DNA of 41,216 bases from Sulfuritalea sp. (GTDB taxonomy: Bacteria > Pseudomonadota > Gammaproteobacteria > Burkholderiales > Burkholderiaceae_C). Under the pieces are notes generated by a model. It did no database searches. It saw nothing but the letters and a program-made list of their open reading frames with translations, and was not told the DNA's origin. The position numbers and the translations under genes were made by a program. The stretch spans positions 1 through 41,216 of the forward strand of contig JAIPDD010000006.1 in assembly GCA_021737875.1 (NCBI GenBank), in the 5' to 3' direction. Positions 14,495 to 22,068 of the stretch are shown here, in pieces (the stretch's first letter is position 1; every line of letters starts with the position of its first letter).

Positions 14495-15451
14495 TCAATT
14501 GGCCCGACGAATATCAGACGGGGCAGAGCCGTAGGAGTCTTTGAAACTTCTTGAAAAATGCGACTGGTTAACAAAGCCGCATTGGATTGCAATGTCAGCA
14601 ATAGGATTTCGGCTTTGCTTTAAAAGCTCGTGGGCGCGGGACAAACGCAGCTGTAGTGCAAACTGAGCCGGACTCATGGAGAGCTCGGTTTTAAACAAAC
14701 GCTCCAATTGACGCGAACTGACATGCACTTGGTGCGCAATAAATTCAGTAGACAAAGGAGAGCTCAAACTTCGCTCCATCATTAAAACTGCTTTTCGCAC
14801 CCGTTGGTCGGATGTGTTGGAGCCCAGCAAGGGCAAGGGTTGGGTGTTCTGTGACGAGAGAGACTCTTGTGCAATCAATATGCGCAAAGCTTTTTTGGCT
14901 TGGGCTTGGCCTCCGCGCGCACTGATTAAATGCGCTGCAAGATGCACCACGCTGGTTCCACCAGCGCAGGTGATGCGTTGGCGGTCAATGGTGAAAAGAT
15001 CAGCAGACGTGGTTCTAATCGTAGGAAAACGGCGTTTGAATTCAGAGACATGAAACCAACTGACACAGGCCTGATGCCCGCAAAGCAAGCCCAGTTGTGC
15101 CAAAACAAAACTACCTGTACAAATACCAATCAATGCAACGCCCATGGTCGCGCTATGGCGAATGTAATGTTGCAGTTCGGTGTGCAGCGGGGGAGAGTCA
15201 AGCAATCCGCCAACAACGACCAGAAAATCAATAGCCAGTGGGTCAGAGAGTTGGGTTGTTGGATGAATTTCAACGCCGCAGCTGGCTTGAATGGGCTGCA
15301 TGTCGTGGCTTAAAACGGTCCAACTGCAGTCAATAGGCCGACTGCGGTCGCCCTCGTCTGCAGCCAGACGCAACGTATCAACGAAAGCGGAAAAGGCTAA
15401 GAGAGTGAACTTCGGACTAAGAATAAATCCGATACGCAATGGGTGTTGCAT
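14495..15451 (-). CDS. GATase1-AraC (GlxA-type) transcriptional regulator, downstream copy
   Basis: 318 residues from the ATG at 15451 (MQHPLRIGFI); a GTG at 15493 would overlap the permease gene. The N-terminal half is a DJ-1/PfpI-like ligand domain (FVDTLRLAADEG, DFLVVVGGLLD, LIGICTGSFVLAQLGLL, CAGGTSVVHLAAHLI). The C-terminal half is a double-HTH AraC DNA-binding domain (HVSSRQLERLFKTEL, IADIAIQCGFVNQSHFSRSFKDSYG). Relatives in pseudomonads (GbdR, SouR, CdhR, CahR) sense small quaternary or N-methyl compounds. It is the last gene of the creatinase-ABC cluster, 13 bp after the permease, so it is likely co-expressed with it. Confidence 0.9.
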   Translation of the reverse strand: MQHPLRIGFILSPKFTLLAFSAFVDTLRLAADEGDRSRPIDCSWTVLSHDMQPIQASCGVEIHPTTQLSDPLAIDFLVVVGGLLDSPPLHTELQHYIRHSATMGVALIGICTGSFVLAQLGLLCGHQACVSWFHVSEFKRRFPTIRTTSADLFTIDRQRITCAGGTSVVHLAAHLISARGGQAQAKKALRILIAQESLSSQNTQPLPLLGSNTSDQRVRKAVLMMERSLSSPLSTEFIAHQVHVSSRQLERLFKTELSMSPAQFALQLRLSRAHELLKQSRNPIADIAIQCGFVNQSHFSRSFKDSYGSAPSDIRRAN

Positions 15452-15464
15452 GGGTTGGCACGCA

Positions 15465-16301
15465 TTACTCCGCGATACCGCGCAATGCGACACTTCGACG
15501 CCGCAGGAGTTCGAGGGTTAAAAGCAAAAAAATTGCAAAAATAATCAAAACAAATGCTGCGGCAAGAATGGTGGGAGAGAGCTGTTCACGAAGCCCAGTC
15601 CACATTTGGCGAGGCAGGGTTGTTTGTTCTGCACCCCCTAAAAACAGAACCACCACCACTTCATCGAAGGAGGTTGCAAATGCAAAAAGTGCCCCAGATA
15701 AAACCCCAGGCCACACCAAGGGAAGCATGATTTTGCGAAAGGCAAAAAATTGCGAGGCGCCAAGACTTCGGGCAGCACGGAGCAAATTCATATCAAACCC
15801 ACCCAAGGTCGCCGTCACAGTGATAACGACAAACGGCATTCCCAGTGCAGCGTGAACCAACACGATTCCAAGTAGGCTGTTGGCGATTCCAAGCTTAGAG
15901 AAAAAGAAGTAAGCACCCACAGCGAGTACGACGACGGGGACAATCATGGGCGAGACTAACACTGCCATGATCAACCGCTTGCCTGGTAGGTTTCGGTGAT
16001 TCAAACCAACGGCCGCAAGCGTTCCTAATGTGGTTGCAAGCAGTGTGGCAAGCGTAGCCGTCACCAAGCTATTTGAAATGGCGGAAAGCCAGACAGGGTT
16101 GGTGAACAATTCATGAAACCAACGCAGGCTGTAGGTGTGAATAGGGAAATGAAAATAGGGCTCGTTATTGAAAGCAAGCGGGATGACAACCAACACCGGC
16201 GCAACTAAAAAAAACAAGATGGCACCGCAGCCAATGAGGAGCAGCCAATGACGAAAACGCTGAAGCGCCGTGGTGTAAAGGGGCAGGTTTGAAATACTCA
16301 T
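15465..16301 (-). CDS. ABC transporter permease, PotC-like
   Basis: Inner-membrane permease of the polyamine/opine importer class, 278 residues with six predicted transmembrane segments. The EAA loop that docks on the ATPase is LLRAARSLGASQFFAFRKIMLPLVWPG (seen in parts, about residues 170-200), preceded by GMPFVVITVTATL. The start overlaps the stop of the upstream permease gene by ATGA (16298-16301), which means coupled translation. It forms one importer with the ATPase, binding protein and second permease encoded just upstream. The substrate is inferred from the linked creatinase to be creatine or a related guanidino compound. Confidence 0.9.
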   Translation of the reverse strand: MSISNLPLYTTALQRFRHWLLLIGCGAILFFLVAPVLVVIPLAFNNEPYFHFPIHTYSLRWFHELFTNPVWLSAISNSLVTATLATLLATTLGTLAAVGLNHRNLPGKRLIMAVLVSPMIVPVVVLAVGAYFFFSKLGIANSLLGIVLVHAALGMPFVVITVTATLGGFDMNLLRAARSLGASQFFAFRKIMLPLVWPGVLSGALFAFATSFDEVVVVLFLGGAEQTTLPRQMWTGLREQLSPTILAAAFVLIIFAIFLLLTLELLRRRSVALRGIAE

Positions 16302-17524
16302 CCTAGCCTCACGTTGCTAACGCCTACCAGCCGATCGTAGACCCAGTAGAGAAGCAAAACCGCGCCTAACAAAATGGCAGACAGTGCCGAGGCTAGCCCC
16401 CAGTTGAGGGAGCGGCCGATGTTGTCAGCAACAAAATAACTGATCATTTGGTCGGCTGCACCACCGACTAAAGCGGGGGTAATGTAGTAGCCAAGTGACA
16501 AAATAAACACAAGCAATGCGCCGGCGCTGATACCAGGCAAACACTGCGGTAAGTAGACGCGGAAAAATGCCGTCATGGGTTTTGCGCCCAAAGACCGCGC
16601 CGCACGAACGTAGGAGGGCGGGATTTGCCGCATTACAGAGTACATGGGCAAAATCGTGAAAGGCAAAAGAATGTGCGTCATCGCAACGATGACGCCAAAC
16701 CGATTAAACACAAGTGCAAGAGGCTCAGCAATCAATCCTAGCGCTTGAAGGGTTGAGTTAACCACACCCTCCTTTTGAAGCATCACCATCCAAGCGGTTG
16801 TTCGAACCAGCAAGGAGGTCCAAAAGGGAAGCAAGACCAAAATAAGCAACATATTGGCTTGCTTGTCTTGCATGTGCGCAAGCAAATAGGCCAAAGGAAA
16901 ACCTAGTAGCAAGCACATCAATGTGACCGTCAGTGCAACGCCTACGGTGCGCATAAATACGGTGACATGAATTCGCTGGCCTTCATCTTGGAGGCTAATC
17001 TCACCCGAACTTTGGCGCTGAAAATCAAGTGCAGATAGAAAAAATAGGGTGTGATTCTCGGAAGAAAGGTTGCGAATGATGCCCCACACCTTGGGTTGAC
17101 CCCAAGCGGGGTCTGCATTTTCGAAAAAGGGCTGCCAGGGTCCGCTGTCTTGGGCCGATACTTTGCGTGCAGCGCGCATAAAGATACTGCGTGTGCCGCT
17201 TTCTTCGAAGTTAAGTCGTGTTGCGATGGGGCTAATTTTCTCAGCCGCAACCGCTGCCTTCATGTCCTGTGCCAAGGCTTCAAATACGGGCTCTGGAGGA
17301 ATTTGAGTGCGTGGCCCATTCCATTTTTCTAGGGCTGAAACAGTCAGTGGCAATCCTTCTGGAACCACGGGGTCATGGAAGCTGTTGAGCAAGACGCTGC
17401 CAAGGGGCAGTAAAAAACTTAAGGCCACGAAAATGAACAAGGGTGCGATCAATAGATACGCTCTGAGTTGACCGCGCAGCTCAGCTCTGCGCAGACGGCG
17501 CTCCAAGTTCGGTTGCTCGTTCAT
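16298..17524 (-). CDS. ABC transporter permease, PotB-like, with large periplasmic loop
   Basis: About 408 residues from the ATG at 17524 (MNEQPNLERR); the frame runs on to 17557 inside the binding-protein gene. After transmembrane helix 1 (about 22-44) there is an unusually long hydrophilic segment (about 50-188) before helix 2 (RTVGVALTVTLMCLLLGFPL). The rest is a normal PotB-type core with the EAA loop YVRAARSLGAKPMTAFFRVYLPQCLPG in the C-terminal third. The loop should face the periplasm and could form a small docking domain for the binding protein. It overlaps the next permease by 4 bp. Confidence 0.9.
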   Translation of the reverse strand: MNEQPNLERRLRRAELRGQLRAYLLIAPLFIFVALSFLLPLGSVLLNSFHDPVVPEGLPLTVSALEKWNGPRTQIPPEPVFEALAQDMKAAVAAEKISPIATRLNFEESGTRSIFMRAARKVSAQDSGPWQPFFENADPAWGQPKVWGIIRNLSSENHTLFFLSALDFQRQSSGEISLQDEGQRIHVTVFMRTVGVALTVTLMCLLLGFPLAYLLAHMQDKQANMLLILVLLPFWTSLLVRTTAWMVMLQKEGVVNSTLQALGLIAEPLALVFNRFGVIVAMTHILLPFTILPMYSVMRQIPPSYVRAARSLGAKPMTAFFRVYLPQCLPGISAGALLVFILSLGYYITPALVGGAADQMISYFVADNIGRSLNWGLASALSAILLGAVLLLYWVYDRLVGVSNVRLG

Positions 17525-17541
17525 TTCCGTGCCAAGGTTTT

Positions 17542-18615
17542 TTATTTTGCCAACCAAGCAGAGAAGCGTTTGTTCAAGTCATCGCCATATTCAGACCAGA
17601 ACTGCGCGCTTGTGAGCATTTGACGCCCGCTGTGTCCGCCATTTGGAAGCCATGCCTTTGTTGCAGCAGGGATCTTGCCCAAAGAGGAGTTCCGTGCGGG
17701 TGCGTATGGAATCCACTTGGCCTGTTCCGTCAGCGCTGTCGTACTGGTTGCAAAACGAACAAAATCTTGCGCTGCAGCGAGGTTTTTTGTTCCTTTAACA
17801 ATGACAAATAAGTCTGGAACTTGAACTTGGCCATCCCAAACCAACGCAAAATCACGTTTGTCTTTGGCATTTGCATCAAAAATTCGACCGTGGTAAACGC
17901 TCGTCATCACTACTTCGCCAGAAGCGAGTAATTGTGGCGGTTGTGCCCCAGCAGTCCACCAAACCACGCTACTTTTGATCGTGTCGAGCTTTTTAAATGC
18001 GCGCTCTACACCAGCGGGAGTTGCCAGTACTTTGTAAATGTCGGCAGGTGCTACACCATCGGCCATCAACGCCCATTCCATGTTGACGCTAGGGTGCTTG
18101 CGCATGCCGCGTTTGCCTGGGAATTTGCTTGTATCGAAATAGTCGTTCAGACTTTTGGGACCATTGGCCCCAAGCTTTGCCTTGTCGTACGCGACTACGT
18201 TTGCGTAGTAAATATTAGCAACAGCACATGGCGTGACAAGTCCGGGGAGGAAGTCTTTCGTTGCAGGGGTTCCGTCGTCTCCTGCAGGAAGTTTGGAGGC
18301 GTCAATTTTCTCGAACAAACCTTCTTCGCATCCCTTGATGGCCTCAGCCAACTCGACGTCAACAACATCCCATTTCACATTGCCCGTTTTGACCTGGGCT
18401 GCAATTTCTGCAAGATCGCCGTTGTAGTCTTGGGAGAGAACTTTGATGCCAGATTTTGCAGTGAATGGCTTGTACATCGCCTCTTCTTGGCTTTTTGTGT
18501 AGGCGCCACCCCATGCGGTAACTGTGATGCTTTGGGCTTGAACAATAACAGGTAAGAGGGTCAGAGCTACTGCACTGGCAACCCCGGTGAGGTTAACGCG
18601 AATTTTGGTAAACAT
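17542..18615 (-). CDS. PotD-like periplasmic substrate-binding protein
   Basis: 357 residues with a signal peptide (1-27, ending IVQAQS). The mature part is a type-II binding protein of the spermidine/putrescine/opine class: ITVTAWGGAYTKSQEEA at its N-terminus, then WDVVDVELAEAIKGCEEGLFE, FPGKRGMRKHPSVNMEWALMADGV and VWWTAGAQPPQLLASGEVVMTSVYHGRI in family order. A good AGGAG precedes the ATG. It sits between the ATPase and permease genes. The ligand is not known; the linked creatinase suggests creatine. Confidence 0.9.
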   Translation of the reverse strand: MFTKIRVNLTGVASAVALTLLPVIVQAQSITVTAWGGAYTKSQEEAMYKPFTAKSGIKVLSQDYNGDLAEIAAQVKTGNVKWDVVDVELAEAIKGCEEGLFEKIDASKLPAGDDGTPATKDFLPGLVTPCAVANIYYANVVAYDKAKLGANGPKSLNDYFDTSKFPGKRGMRKHPSVNMEWALMADGVAPADIYKVLATPAGVERAFKKLDTIKSSVVWWTAGAQPPQLLASGEVVMTSVYHGRIFDANAKDKRDFALVWDGQVQVPDLFVIVKGTKNLAAAQDFVRFATSTTALTEQAKWIPYAPARNSSLGKIPAATKAWLPNGGHSGRQMLTSAQFWSEYGDDLNKRFSAWLAK

Positions 18616-18644
18616 ATTTGCTCCTATTTATTTAAAGTCAGCCC

Positions 18645-19730
18645 TCACACGCCGTCCAAAGCTCTGCAATCGGATGCATTCCAGCCAATGCTGGTGGTAC
18701 TTCCGGACAAGAGACTGAGGTCGCGTCCATCGTTGGGCAGCGTAACGATGAAATCTTCAAGTCCGCAGGCGTTCAAGCGCACACGGGCATATCGGCCAAG
18801 GTAGGTGACATCAATGACTTTGCCACTGACCACGGTATCAACCGCACCGTGGAGTGGGTTGAGTTGTACGCGTTCAGGGCGAATCGATAGCCGGGTCGAC
18901 TGCCCGGGCTTATGTACAGCAACGGCTTGGGCAAGAATGCGAGTTCCGTCTGCCAATGTGGCCTCACAGCTGGTTCCTGAAACAGAAGTCACTTGGGCTA
19001 AGAGGGTGTTGTTTTCCCCGATGAACTGCGCAACAAAAGCATTGGAGGGGCATTCATAAAGCTGTGTCGGTCTATCAATTTGCTGGATTTTTCCATGATG
19101 GAATACAGCAACGCGGTCCGACATGGCCAAGGCCTCTGTCTGATCGTGGGTGACATAAACAATCGTAATACCTAGCTCTTTGTGCAGCCGTTTGATTTCA
19201 TATTGCAACTGTTCACGAAGTTGCTTGTCCAGTGCAGAAAGTGGCTCATCCATCAAAACCAATTTGGGTTCAAACACCAGTGCTCTTGCCACAGCAACGC
19301 GCTGCTGTTGTCCACCCGACATTTGCGCGGGTCGTCTCGAATCAAACCCTTTGAGGCCGACTTTGTCTAAGGCTTTGGCAACCCTTGACTCGGCTTCGCT
19401 TCCTTTGATGCCGCGAACACTCAAGGGGAATGCCACGTTTTCAGCCACTGTCATATGGGGGAAAAGCGCGTAGCTTTGGAAAACCATGCCGATATTGCGT
19501 TGCTCTGGCGCAATTCGGTTGATGGGCTTTCCATCAAGAAAAATTTCCCCAGCGGTTGCCGTTTCAAATCCGGCCAACATCATGAGCGTCGTGGTCTTTC
19601 CTGACCCCGATGGCCCAAGCAGGGTTAAAAACTCACCTTGTGCGATATCGAGGTTGAGATCTTCTACGACAAGCACTTTGCCGTCATACGTTTTTTCAAC
19701 ATGCTCGAATCGTACAAATGGTTGACTCAT
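18645..19730 (-). CDS. ABC transporter ATP-binding protein, PotA-like
   Basis: Import ATPase of about 361 residues starting at MSQPFVRFEH (19730); a TTG at 19763 inside the creatinase end is the only longer option. Walker A GPSGSGKTT is at 39-47, the Q-loop in VFQSYALFPH, the signature MSGGQQQRVA at 137-146, Walker B LVLMDEP at 157-163, and the H-loop in VTHDQTEALAMSDR. A C-terminal TOBE domain (about 240-361) is typical of the polyamine/sugar (CUT/POPT) ATPases. It starts 27 bp after the creatinase stop in the same transcription unit. Confidence 0.92.
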   Translation of the reverse strand: MSQPFVRFEHVEKTYDGKVLVVEDLNLDIAQGEFLTLLGPSGSGKTTTLMMLAGFETATAGEIFLDGKPINRIAPEQRNIGMVFQSYALFPHMTVAENVAFPLSVRGIKGSEAESRVAKALDKVGLKGFDSRRPAQMSGGQQQRVAVARALVFEPKLVLMDEPLSALDKQLREQLQYEIKRLHKELGITIVYVTHDQTEALAMSDRVAVFHHGKIQQIDRPTQLYECPSNAFVAQFIGENNTLLAQVTSVSGTSCEATLADGTRILAQAVAVHKPGQSTRLSIRPERVQLNPLHGAVDTVVSGKVIDVTYLGRYARVRLNACGLEDFIVTLPNDGRDLSLLSGSTTSIGWNASDCRALDGV

Positions 19731-19756
19731 AGGGCTACTTTTGGTATCGCAATGAG

Positions 19757-20968
19757 TTAGCAAGCGATGATGTTGTGTTCTGGCCCATAGGGGAAGCCAG
19801 TGATGTTTTGATGGCCTTTGTCGGTCACCACCAAAATGTCGTGCTCACGGTAACCGCCAGATCCGGGCATGCCTTCGGGCAACATGATCATGGGTTCGAT
19901 GGATACGACCATGCCGGGTTCGAGCACGGTTTCGATATCTTCACGGAATTCCAAACCGGCTTCGCGCCCGTAGTAGTGCGACAAAACACCAAAGGAGTGT
20001 CCGTAACCAAAGGTGCGGTACTTCAGCAAGCCGTACTCTTCATAAATTTTGTTCAACTCATGCGCGACGTCGCAGCAGCGCACACCTGGCTTGACCAGCT
20101 TTTGACCTTCTTCGTGCACCCGAACATTCACTTCCCACAGTTTCAGGGATGCAGCATCAACCTCGCCAAAGAACAGCGTGCGTTCTAGGGCGGTGTAGTA
20201 GCCTGAAATCATAGAAAAACAATTCAGGCTCAAGATGTCACCCTTTTGAACCTTGCGGGTCGTAACAGGGTTGTGTGCGCCGTCGGTGTTGATGCCAGAC
20301 TGGAACCAAGTCCATGAGTCCATGAGCTCCGTGTGGGGGTAGCGTTTGGCAATTTCACGCACCATGGCCTGTGTCGATGCCAGGGCCACTTCGTGCTCTG
20401 GAACACCTTCGTGTACGGCAGCCACCAAGGCCGCCCCACCAACGTCGCAGACTTGGGCGCCGTTTTTGATGAATTCGATTTCCTCAGCGGACTTGATCAT
20501 GCGCAATTTCATGCAGTCAGCTGCGATGTTGGCGAACTCCACATTGGGGAGCACCGTCTTTATTTTTTCCATGCGTTCAAGTGGCATGTGGTCAAATTCC
20601 AAACCAACGCGTCCCTTATTCGGAACTTCTTGTGCGATCGCGCGGAAGTAGTTCCCGCTTTGCCAGTCGGTGTAAATCACGGCGCGATCACAAACGCCTT
20701 TGCGCCACGGTTGGCCGCCGTCAATATTTGCCGCAATGATGACGCTCTTGTTTTGGGTAACGACCAAGCTGTAAAAGCGGCCAAAAGAGCAGTAGAGAAA
20801 ATCGCTGTAATAGTTGATGTTGTGATAGCTTGTAAACACAACGGTATCTACCGATTTGCTTGCCATCATGGCTCTAAGCTTGGCGATCCGATTGGCATAT
20901 TCGCCGTCAGAAAAACTATGGCGAACGCGTTCACCGTTGTCGATATTTATAAGATTAGGCATTGCCAT
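19757..20968 (-). CDS. creA: creatinase (creatine amidinohydrolase)
   Basis: Hydrolyses creatine to sarcosine and urea (EC 3.5.3.3); 403 residues, a homodimeric pita-bread (M24) fold that works without metal. As I recall the Pseudomonas putida enzyme, its key residues fall at the same numbers here: F62 and R64 (SFGRF), H232 (AHNPVT, catalytic), Y258, E262 (ALERT), H324 (YGHSF), R335 (YYGRE), E358 (SIEPM) and H376 (YREHD). The long stretch around TSYHNINYYSDFLYCSFGR is also creatinase-specific, which separates it from prolidases and other M24 members. GGAG sits 7-8 nt before the ATG. It is the first enzyme gene of the cluster, directly downstream of one GATase1-AraC regulator and upstream of the ABC importer. 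No sarcosine oxidase, urease or creatininase is in the window. Confidence 0.95.
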   Translation of the reverse strand: MAMPNLINIDNGERVRHSFSDGEYANRIAKLRAMMASKSVDTVVFTSYHNINYYSDFLYCSFGRFYSLVVTQNKSVIIAANIDGGQPWRKGVCDRAVIYTDWQSGNYFRAIAQEVPNKGRVGLEFDHMPLERMEKIKTVLPNVEFANIAADCMKLRMIKSAEEIEFIKNGAQVCDVGGAALVAAVHEGVPEHEVALASTQAMVREIAKRYPHTELMDSWTWFQSGINTDGAHNPVTTRKVQKGDILSLNCFSMISGYYTALERTLFFGEVDAASLKLWEVNVRVHEEGQKLVKPGVRCCDVAHELNKIYEEYGLLKYRTFGYGHSFGVLSHYYGREAGLEFREDIETVLEPGMVVSIEPMIMLPEGMPGSGGYREHDILVVTDKGHQNITGFPYGPEHNIIAC

Positions 20969-21037
20969 ATTCAGTCTCCGTTTGCTGTTTACTAATGGGC
21001 AGAGTATTAGCGGTAGAGCTAAATAAGGGCTACTTAA

Positions 21038-22018
21038 TTACGACAGTAACCTTTCGTTAAATGCCAAGCCATGGGCGCGCTCTTTTCGGTCTTTTTGCGG
21101 CGATGCACCATAGCGCGGTGTGTACCGCGCGGTCAGATTGGAAGGAGACGCAAAGCCGGTTTCAGCTGCAATTTCTCTGATATTTTTATCGCTTCGGTGT
21201 ACCAAAATACGCGCATGCGAGAGCCGTATATCAAGATAAACACGCTCGGCTGATTTGGCAAACTTCTTCTTAAAAAGTCTTTGTAGGCTGCGCAAAGAAA
21301 CACCAGAAAACTGAGCCACTTCAGAAATCGTTAAGGGCTCAGAAATATTGGCTTCCATTAAACGAAGTGCTTCTACAGCGGTCGGGTGTGTCACGCGGCC
21401 TTGGTGAATGATCGAGACGGTTTGAATATCAGTCAAGCTGCGCCGCTCAACAATAAGCAAATTAGCAACCTCGTTGGCCAACGCCCGGTTACCTGGTGTT
21501 TGCGTGAGTAAATAGGTCATTAAATCCAAGGGTGCAACGCCACCGCTGCATGTGTAGCGGTCACGGTCGACTTCAAAAAAATGCTGCGTAACAATGACTT
21601 TCGGGAACTGTTGGGCGAGTGCCTCATGGTCTTCCCAGTGGATCGTGCTGCGGTAGCCATTGAGCAAACCTGCTTGAGCCATCAAGTACGCACCCGTGTC
21701 GATTCCGCCAAGAGGGATGCCATTGGATGCCGCTTTCTTTAACCATAAGGTGAGATTGCGAAAACCGCGCTTAGGGATAGGGTTGGGGCCGATGACAAAA
21801 ATTGCATCTAGTGCAGGCGCATGTGCAAGACTGTATTGCGTCATCACCTCAATTCCATCGCTGGATGCGACCAGTCCTCCATCTTCTGACAGGAGAACCG
21901 AGGTGTAGCTTGGCTTACCCAGAACATGGTTGGCTAGGCGCAATGGATCAACACATGCACTGAGCGCAATCAATGAAAAATTAGGAACGACAACAAATCC
22001 AAAAGTAAACGGATGCAT
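21038..22018 (-). CDS. GATase1-AraC (GlxA-type) transcriptional regulator next to creatinase
   Basis: 326 residues from the ATG at 22018. The N-terminal DJ-1/PfpI-like domain is marked by FGFVVVPNFSLIALSACVDPLRLAN, DAIFVIGPNP, LGGIDTGAYLMAQAGLL and CSGGVAPLDLMTYLL. The C-terminal AraC domain is marked by SEVAQFSGVSLRSLQRLFKKKF and IREIAAETGFASPSNLTARY. It lies 69 bp upstream of the creatinase gene on the same strand. By position it is the best candidate for the creatine-responsive activator, comparable to CahR of pseudomonads; that equivalence is inference. Confidence 0.9.
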   Translation of the reverse strand: MHPFTFGFVVVPNFSLIALSACVDPLRLANHVLGKPSYTSVLLSEDGGLVASSDGIEVMTQYSLAHAPALDAIFVIGPNPIPKRGFRNLTLWLKKAASNGIPLGGIDTGAYLMAQAGLLNGYRSTIHWEDHEALAQQFPKVIVTQHFFEVDRDRYTCSGGVAPLDLMTYLLTQTPGNRALANEVANLLIVERRSLTDIQTVSIIHQGRVTHPTAVEALRLMEANISEPLTISEVAQFSGVSLRSLQRLFKKKFAKSAERVYLDIRLSHARILVHRSDKNIREIAAETGFASPSNLTARYTPRYGASPQKDRKERAHGLAFNERLLS

Positions 22019-22068
22019 TGTCAATCGGCCCAGGCAAAGAAAAATTCCAAAACCAAGGGCGCAACGCG

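Follow-up and report, generated by a model that had tools for sequence, protein, structure and literature searches.

The window analysed here is a stretch of 41,216 nucleotides from Sulfuritalea sp. (assembly GCA_021737875.1, contig JAIPDD010000006.1), and our subject is a block of seven co-directional genes at positions 14495 to 22018, all on the minus strand, which is probably a creatine acquisition and hydrolysis operon with its own predicted ATP-binding cassette (ABC) importer of creatine. The open reading frames (ORFs) lie where the first-pass annotation had placed them, and profile families agree with its order of regulator, creatinase, ATPase, binding protein, two permeases and regulator. 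The upstream end is formed by a GATase1-AraC (GlxA-type) regulator (21038 to 22024, likely start 22018), followed by a creatinase (creatine amidinohydrolase) of 403 amino acids (19757 to 20968), a PotA-type ATPase (18645 to 19763) and a periplasmic binding protein of the gamma-aminobutyric acid (GABA)/opine type, the predicted creatine binder (17542 to 18615). Then come a first permease with a long N-terminal part and a PotB/PotH-like domain from about residue 194 (16298 to 17557), a PotC-like second permease, here permC (15465 to 16301), and a downstream GATase1-AraC regulator (14495 to 15493). Both regulators matched DJ-1_PfpI and HTH_18, the creatinase Creatinase_N and Peptidase_M24, the ATPase ABC_tran and TOBE_2, the binding protein SBP_bac_8 and both permeases BPD_transp_1; the scan returned no MFS family and no GABA catabolic gene among the seven. 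The permease genes overlap by 4 bp (16298-16301), as described earlier. Judged by internal ATGs, three genes probably start later than listed, the ATPase at 19730, the first permease at 17524 and the downstream regulator at 15451, so some overlaps between the listed ORFs are not real. About 190 residues precede the domain of the first permease (16298-17557), and several linked relatives match it near full length.

By sequence, the enzyme is a canonical creatinase (EC 3.5.3.3), with creatine hydrolysis as its predicted activity. It aligned over 399 residues with 1CHM, the creatinase of Pseudomonas putida (611.6 bits, E 5e-183), against 81 bits for the best prolidase. The first-pass annotation had noted all active-site residues at their reference positions, and these residues (F62, R64, H232, E262, R335, E358 and H376) are invariant in 16 of 16 aligned creatinases. 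Furthermore, N249 and A260 stand opposite two Asp of the prolidase 1PV9 that are metal ligands in M24 peptidases; this metal-site pair is lost, as expected for a creatinase. Ectoine hydrolase DoeA and DMSP (dimethylsulfoniopropionate) lyase DddP were rejected as identities, with scores far below cut-offs. One scan of a viral collection (viral_contigs) confirmed no viral copies of creatinase. The plasmid collection held creatinase relatives (E 1e-90) in 420 records, 264 of them from Klebsiella and 103 from Acinetobacter, and on contig C6 of the same genome an ORF labelled by eye as an MttB-like methyltransferase adjoins a second Creatinase_N protein (L002:16-2649).

The upstream regulator has the make-up of CahR, the creatine-responsive GATase1-AraC regulator of P. 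putida (a name not found in the literature searched): DJ-1_PfpI scored 27.8 bits (cut-off 26.6), HTH_18 was also over its cut-off, and the gene lies beside the creatinase. A quick tree, made without bootstrap, placed it in a 51-row group (SH-like approximate likelihood-ratio support 98) of creatinase-locus regulators from Pseudomonas, Thauera/Azoarcus, Caballeronia/Paraburkholderia and Comamonadaceae. Since the rows were drawn from creatinase or binding-protein loci, this lineage recurs at creatinase without being implied to be exclusive to it. Among the 79 listed creatinase loci (the best 80 of 593 confirmed stretches), 45 have a relative of this regulator within 9 kb. The earlier description of two paralogous regulators at the ends was right about the families, but the two are only 32% identical and thus distant relatives rather than a recent duplication, the downstream one falling in a separate tree group. 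Nor is the layout fixed, as the downstream regulator was found in 7 of 12 permC-holding loci of our group (our own, L070, L077, L079, L089 (partial), L091 and L229) and was not seen in L068, L071, L072, L076 and L087. A shared operator between regulator and creatinase was also considered, and 14 aligned intergenic stretches had little in common beyond an ATACT-like stretch and GGAG.

Pairing of importer and creatinase across genomes

The linkage that had first suggested creatine uptake and hydrolysis is kept in the genus and recurs elsewhere, which supports that suggestion, with the ligand still a prediction. The genus was sampled with 37 genomes, metagenome-assembled genomes (MAGs) that are partly incomplete. 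Creatinase (threshold E 1e-80) was found in 15 of them and in none of the 24 genomes that represented the rest of the order in the same sample, and an orthologous binding protein (at least 67% identity; partial in G002) also in 15 of the 37. Both occurred together in 13 genomes, creatinase alone in 2, the binding protein alone in 2 and neither in 20 (Fisher 2.6e-6, a value that overstates independence because the genomes are related MAGs). The four odd genomes have particular settings: in G026 another ABC system takes the importer's place, in G035 the contig ends within the ATPase gene, in G006 it starts only with the binding-protein gene, and in G016, a genome of 75% completeness, it is 3.9 kb long. 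In 14 of the 15 creatinase-bearing genomes, the enzyme gene is followed by the window-type ATPase or by more of the importer. Paralogues of the binding protein that are 42-47% identical and have no creatinase linkage in genus genomes sit in another clade.

At the level of the phylum, creatinase (E 1e-90) was found in 32 of 398 genomes, our own included. In 8 of the 31 others a relative of the binding protein (E 1e-60) lies within 10 kb of creatinase, against a chance expectation of 0.19 calculated from match number and genome size, in a comparison of related and not fully independent genomes. Parts of a window-type importer lie within 9 kb in 13 of the 79 listed loci; a further 2 have at least the ATPase, 1 has the window-type ATPase behind another ABC system, and 22 have an MHS-type MFS gene.

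In a tree of 69 binding proteins, the window clade comprises 19 rows (support 100/100), 3 of them without creatinase on their contig piece. Clade B comprises 10 rows (support 99/97) from Binatota, Myxococcota, SAR324 and Pseudomonadota, all in creatinase loci and 0.3 kb to 9 kb from the enzyme gene (L188 via the larger locus L057). Other linked proteins (L170, L178, L183 and two of L124) were placed outside both clades. Linkage, treated as a trait on this tree, needs 9 changes, at least 8 of them forced by starred branches. The hypothesis that the window clade and clade B share one origin was rejected (p-AU, from the approximately unbiased test, 0.0001), in a test that is not clean, as the groups were named after the tree had been seen and long branches are present. 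Because the two clades are rejected as one, the importer-creatinase pairing most likely arose repeatedly.

The expected next step of the pathway co-occurs with the enzyme. The soxB family of sarcosine oxidase is over its cut-off in our own genome and, among 23 genus genomes, occurs in 9 of 9 with creatinase vs 4 of 14 others (p 0.0016); two of those four (G006 and G016) carry the orthologous binding protein, with no creatinase detected in them. No soxA or soxB match lay within 10 kb of the genus loci at the cut-offs used, several contigs being short. In locus L164 (clade B), creatinase and importer have soxA and soxB beside them, both scoring over cut-off, together with a soxG-like gene that scores below it, and L051 has soxA- and soxB-like genes in its creatinase/importer cluster. 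The equivalog model of true creatininase, TIGR04448, had no match in any of the 37 genus genomes and matched 1 of the 61 genomes searched overall, partly incomplete MAGs among them, and creatine is thus a likelier import than creatinine. Matches to PF02633 were discarded as evidence of creatininase, since they occur in 24 of 37 genomes with and without creatinase (the PF02633 and TIGR04448 counts come from different genome sets). Urease alpha was found in 24 of 37 genus genomes, in some as fragments.

The binding protein and its predicted ligand

The first-pass annotation had called the importer PotABCD-type. That description holds for the ATPase, with 362.7 bits to TIGR01187 potA (cut-off 355.6), and for the permease families, but not for the binding protein, which scored 20.2 bits against the 582-bit cut-off of the polyamine PotD model NF007048 and is only 16-19% identical to solved polyamine PotDs. 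Polyamine import was rejected on the sequence and fold of this protein. Its model (predicted local distance difference test score, pLDDT, 91.5) has as nearest folds SAR11 PotD-GABA (8JV1), AgtB, MotA, Atu4243-GABA (4EQ7) and iGABASnFR, together with the unassigned Bradyrhizobium protein 4I1D. Thus, those of the nearest structures whose ligand is named are binders of GABA or opines, the GABA of 8JV1 being taken from the structure title and not found in the literature searched. Identities are 37% to SAR11 PotD-GABA, 35% to Atu4243-GABA and 37-38% to iGABASnFR. A polyamine-only binder, which would have spoken against a creatine importer, is therefore not what sequence and fold resemble.

The iGABASnFR2 report gives the GABA site as W9, T13, F100, Y102, W202, R205, D228 and Y264, Y102 being the engineered F102Y (PMC12999171). 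Mapped by hand through a pairwise alignment from Pf622, these correspond in order to W35, Y39, I135, Y137, Y241, R244, D268 and Y304 of the binding protein at 17542 to 18615, which thereby combines a GABA/opine-type fold with the Arg and Asp of the GABA site. All 57 aligned rows have Arg at the R244 position. At the D268 position, Asp occurs in all 15 window-clade rows, all 10 clade-B rows and 7 of the 8 near relatives, and H242 of the window clade is replaced by Asn in nearly all other rows. An Arg that holds a carboxylate and an Asp that holds a cation would suit creatine better than a polyamine. The animal carriers of creatine and of GABA are close kin (SLC6).

Apparent transporter exchange and a second ABC system

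In one same-family genome (L047), an MHS/MFS gene follows creatinase (TIGR00883, 409 bits, below the 443-bit cut-off), and the ORF behind it matches only residues 122-278 of permC, at 60% identity (L047:6893-8952). The ABC importer appears to have been replaced there by an MFS carrier, with a permease remnant left. A different ABC system lies behind creatinase in L067/L086 (one contig) and in L092, with a polyamine PotD-like binding protein (L092:2428-3570) that is 22% identical to the one studied here. Behind it, L092 has a true creatininase, which scored 366 bits against a cut-off of 235, then a fragment of the 3' part of creatinase (92%) and an ATPase of the window type, so that a creatinine-type module appears to have been inserted between creatinase and its ABC importer (L092:1127-8576).

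Of the 9 distinct loci with the different ABC system, 8 have creatininase no more than 10 kb from creatinase, the ninth contig ending early, vs 0 of 36 rows with the window-type and not the different one, L047 included; several of these rows are closely related, and not all contigs are long. This distribution suggests that the different system is a creatinine importer and the window-type system a creatine importer; candidates for the former lie at L092:2428-7215, L067:2739-5299 and L235:10319-17933. We tentatively propose, in a joint claim whose chances we put close to balanced, that PotD-fold ABC importers were recruited more than once for creatine compounds and that the work is split between two systems: a GABA/opine-type binding protein would take creatine where creatinase occurs without creatininase, and an unrelated polyamine-PotD-like system would take creatinine where true creatininase has been added. 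Small-genome Comamonadaceae would then scavenge dilute, animal-released creatine through the GABA/opine-type system, habitat and source being guesses.

Opp/Dpp-type ABC genes were also seen near creatinase in two loci scanned (L060:12724-13677 and L064:5708-7243), and several other loci of the phylum set have paired ATPase matches; these may represent a further route of creatine uptake.

Substrate of the importer and known systems

In the proposed operon, the upstream CahR-like regulator would activate the genes in the presence of creatine. The periplasmic protein would bind creatine, with R244 holding the carboxylate and with D268 and the aromatic residues W35, Y39, Y137, Y241 and Y304 holding the guanidinium end, and the two permeases with the ATPase would bring it inward. 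Creatinase would split it into sarcosine and urea, and a sarcosine oxidase encoded elsewhere in the genome would carry sarcosine on to glycine. The gene content, the identity of the creatinase, its recurrent linkage, the type of binding protein, the co-occurrence of sarcosine oxidase and the failure to find creatininase are observations; the ligand, the direction of transport, induction and co-transcription we infer.

An importer of GABA or of omega-amino acids in general, standing beside creatinase by chance or taking creatine as a side substrate, would fit the GABA-binding nearest structures, the conserved GABA-site residues Trp, Arg, Asp and Tyr and the closest binding proteins outside the window clade, which are unlinked to creatinase. 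We consider it unlikely, however, given a creatinase linkage repeated in separate clades, the co-occurrence with creatinase in the genus, seven genes without a GABA catabolic one, and unlinked paralogues that fall in another clade. Sarcosine, or a different N-methylated glycine such as dimethylglycine or glycine betaine, might be expected at such a locus because all of these substrates feed sarcosine oxidase, and both the zwitterion-type site and the soxA and soxB genes adjoining importer and creatinase in L164 and L051 agree with this; yet such genes were not seen near the genus loci, and a GABA-type site would space carboxylate and cation further apart than they are in sarcosine, so that we regard this substrate class as more improbable still.

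The least probable of these ligands, and very doubtful, is creatinine or some guanidino acid apart from creatine, for instance guanidinoacetate. Other creatinase clusters do contain creatininase, but the true enzyme was found neither in the 37 genus genomes nor in the 36 window-type rows (some contigs short), creatinine has no carboxylate for R244, and creatinase is narrow for creatine.

Several points weigh against the import of creatine. Binding, uptake and growth on creatine are predictions, and we know of no solved relative that binds creatine. The linked proteins of L170, L178 and L183, outside both clades, have Asn at the D268 position, and Y137 is not special to linked proteins: outside groups A, B and C, it occurs in 10 of 24 rows. 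The binding proteins most similar to the window clade without belonging to it (G076, G337, G263, G290 and G334; 52-56%) are unlinked to creatinase, with no creatinase seen in G076 and G290, and clade B is only 38-46% identical to our protein; among 10 proteins scanned around the closest unlinked binding proteins (L214-L216), no creatine-related family was found. As many as 37 of the 79 listed creatinase loci have none of the three scored transporter kinds within 9 kb, and the genus genomes are kin, so their counts are not independent. Moreover, urease alpha was not found in our own genome, which is 82% complete. The enzyme is thus ordinary and the importer credible but unproven, with solid comparative support.

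A creatine importer at this locus would matter in several ways. Creatine is a nitrogen source for several bacteria, and the uptake route described in the one report found on it is an MFS candidate (PMC8864220). A binding-protein-dependent importer would explain creatine use at low concentrations, it would provide a sensor protein for creatine that belongs to the family of the GABA sensor iGABASnFR, and spermidine/putrescine labels on ABC genes next to creatinase could be replaced.

Compared with known systems, the enzyme is alike to the solved creatinases 1CHM, 7YTO and 1KP0 over its full length. The upstream regulator shares the domain make-up of CahR and clusters with regulators whose genes lie near creatinase in Pseudomonas, Thauera and Caballeronia, its response to creatine being a prediction. 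Escherichia coli PotABCD and PotFGHI have the same ATPase and permease families but a polyamine-type binding protein, from which ours is far removed (20 bits vs the 582-bit PotD cut-off). The GABA binders (8JV1, 4EQ7 and Pf622 9D57) and the opine binders MotA and AgtB share its fold at 25-38% identity, as well as the Arg and Asp of the GABA site. In contrast, T13, F100, F102 and W202 of Pf622 are replaced by Y39, I135, Y137 and Y241, our protein and its clade have H242, and its gene is linked to creatinase. Many Pseudomonas creatinase loci have an adjoining MHS/MFS carrier, where the present block has an ABC system instead. The first-pass annotation knew of no firmly characterised ABC importer for creatine, and we found none in the open-licence literature searched, although an MFS candidate is in print: its authors describe CreT of Corynebacterium glutamicum as a creatine transporter candidate and report that Roseobacter denitrificans, which lacks a CreT homologue, uses creatine as well, so that there may be other routes of entry (PMC8864220). 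CreT has its gene with creatine genes and the same supposed substrate as the importer described here, but it is a single MFS protein, whereas the present block encodes a binding-protein-dependent ABC importer, and none of its seven products is an MFS carrier.

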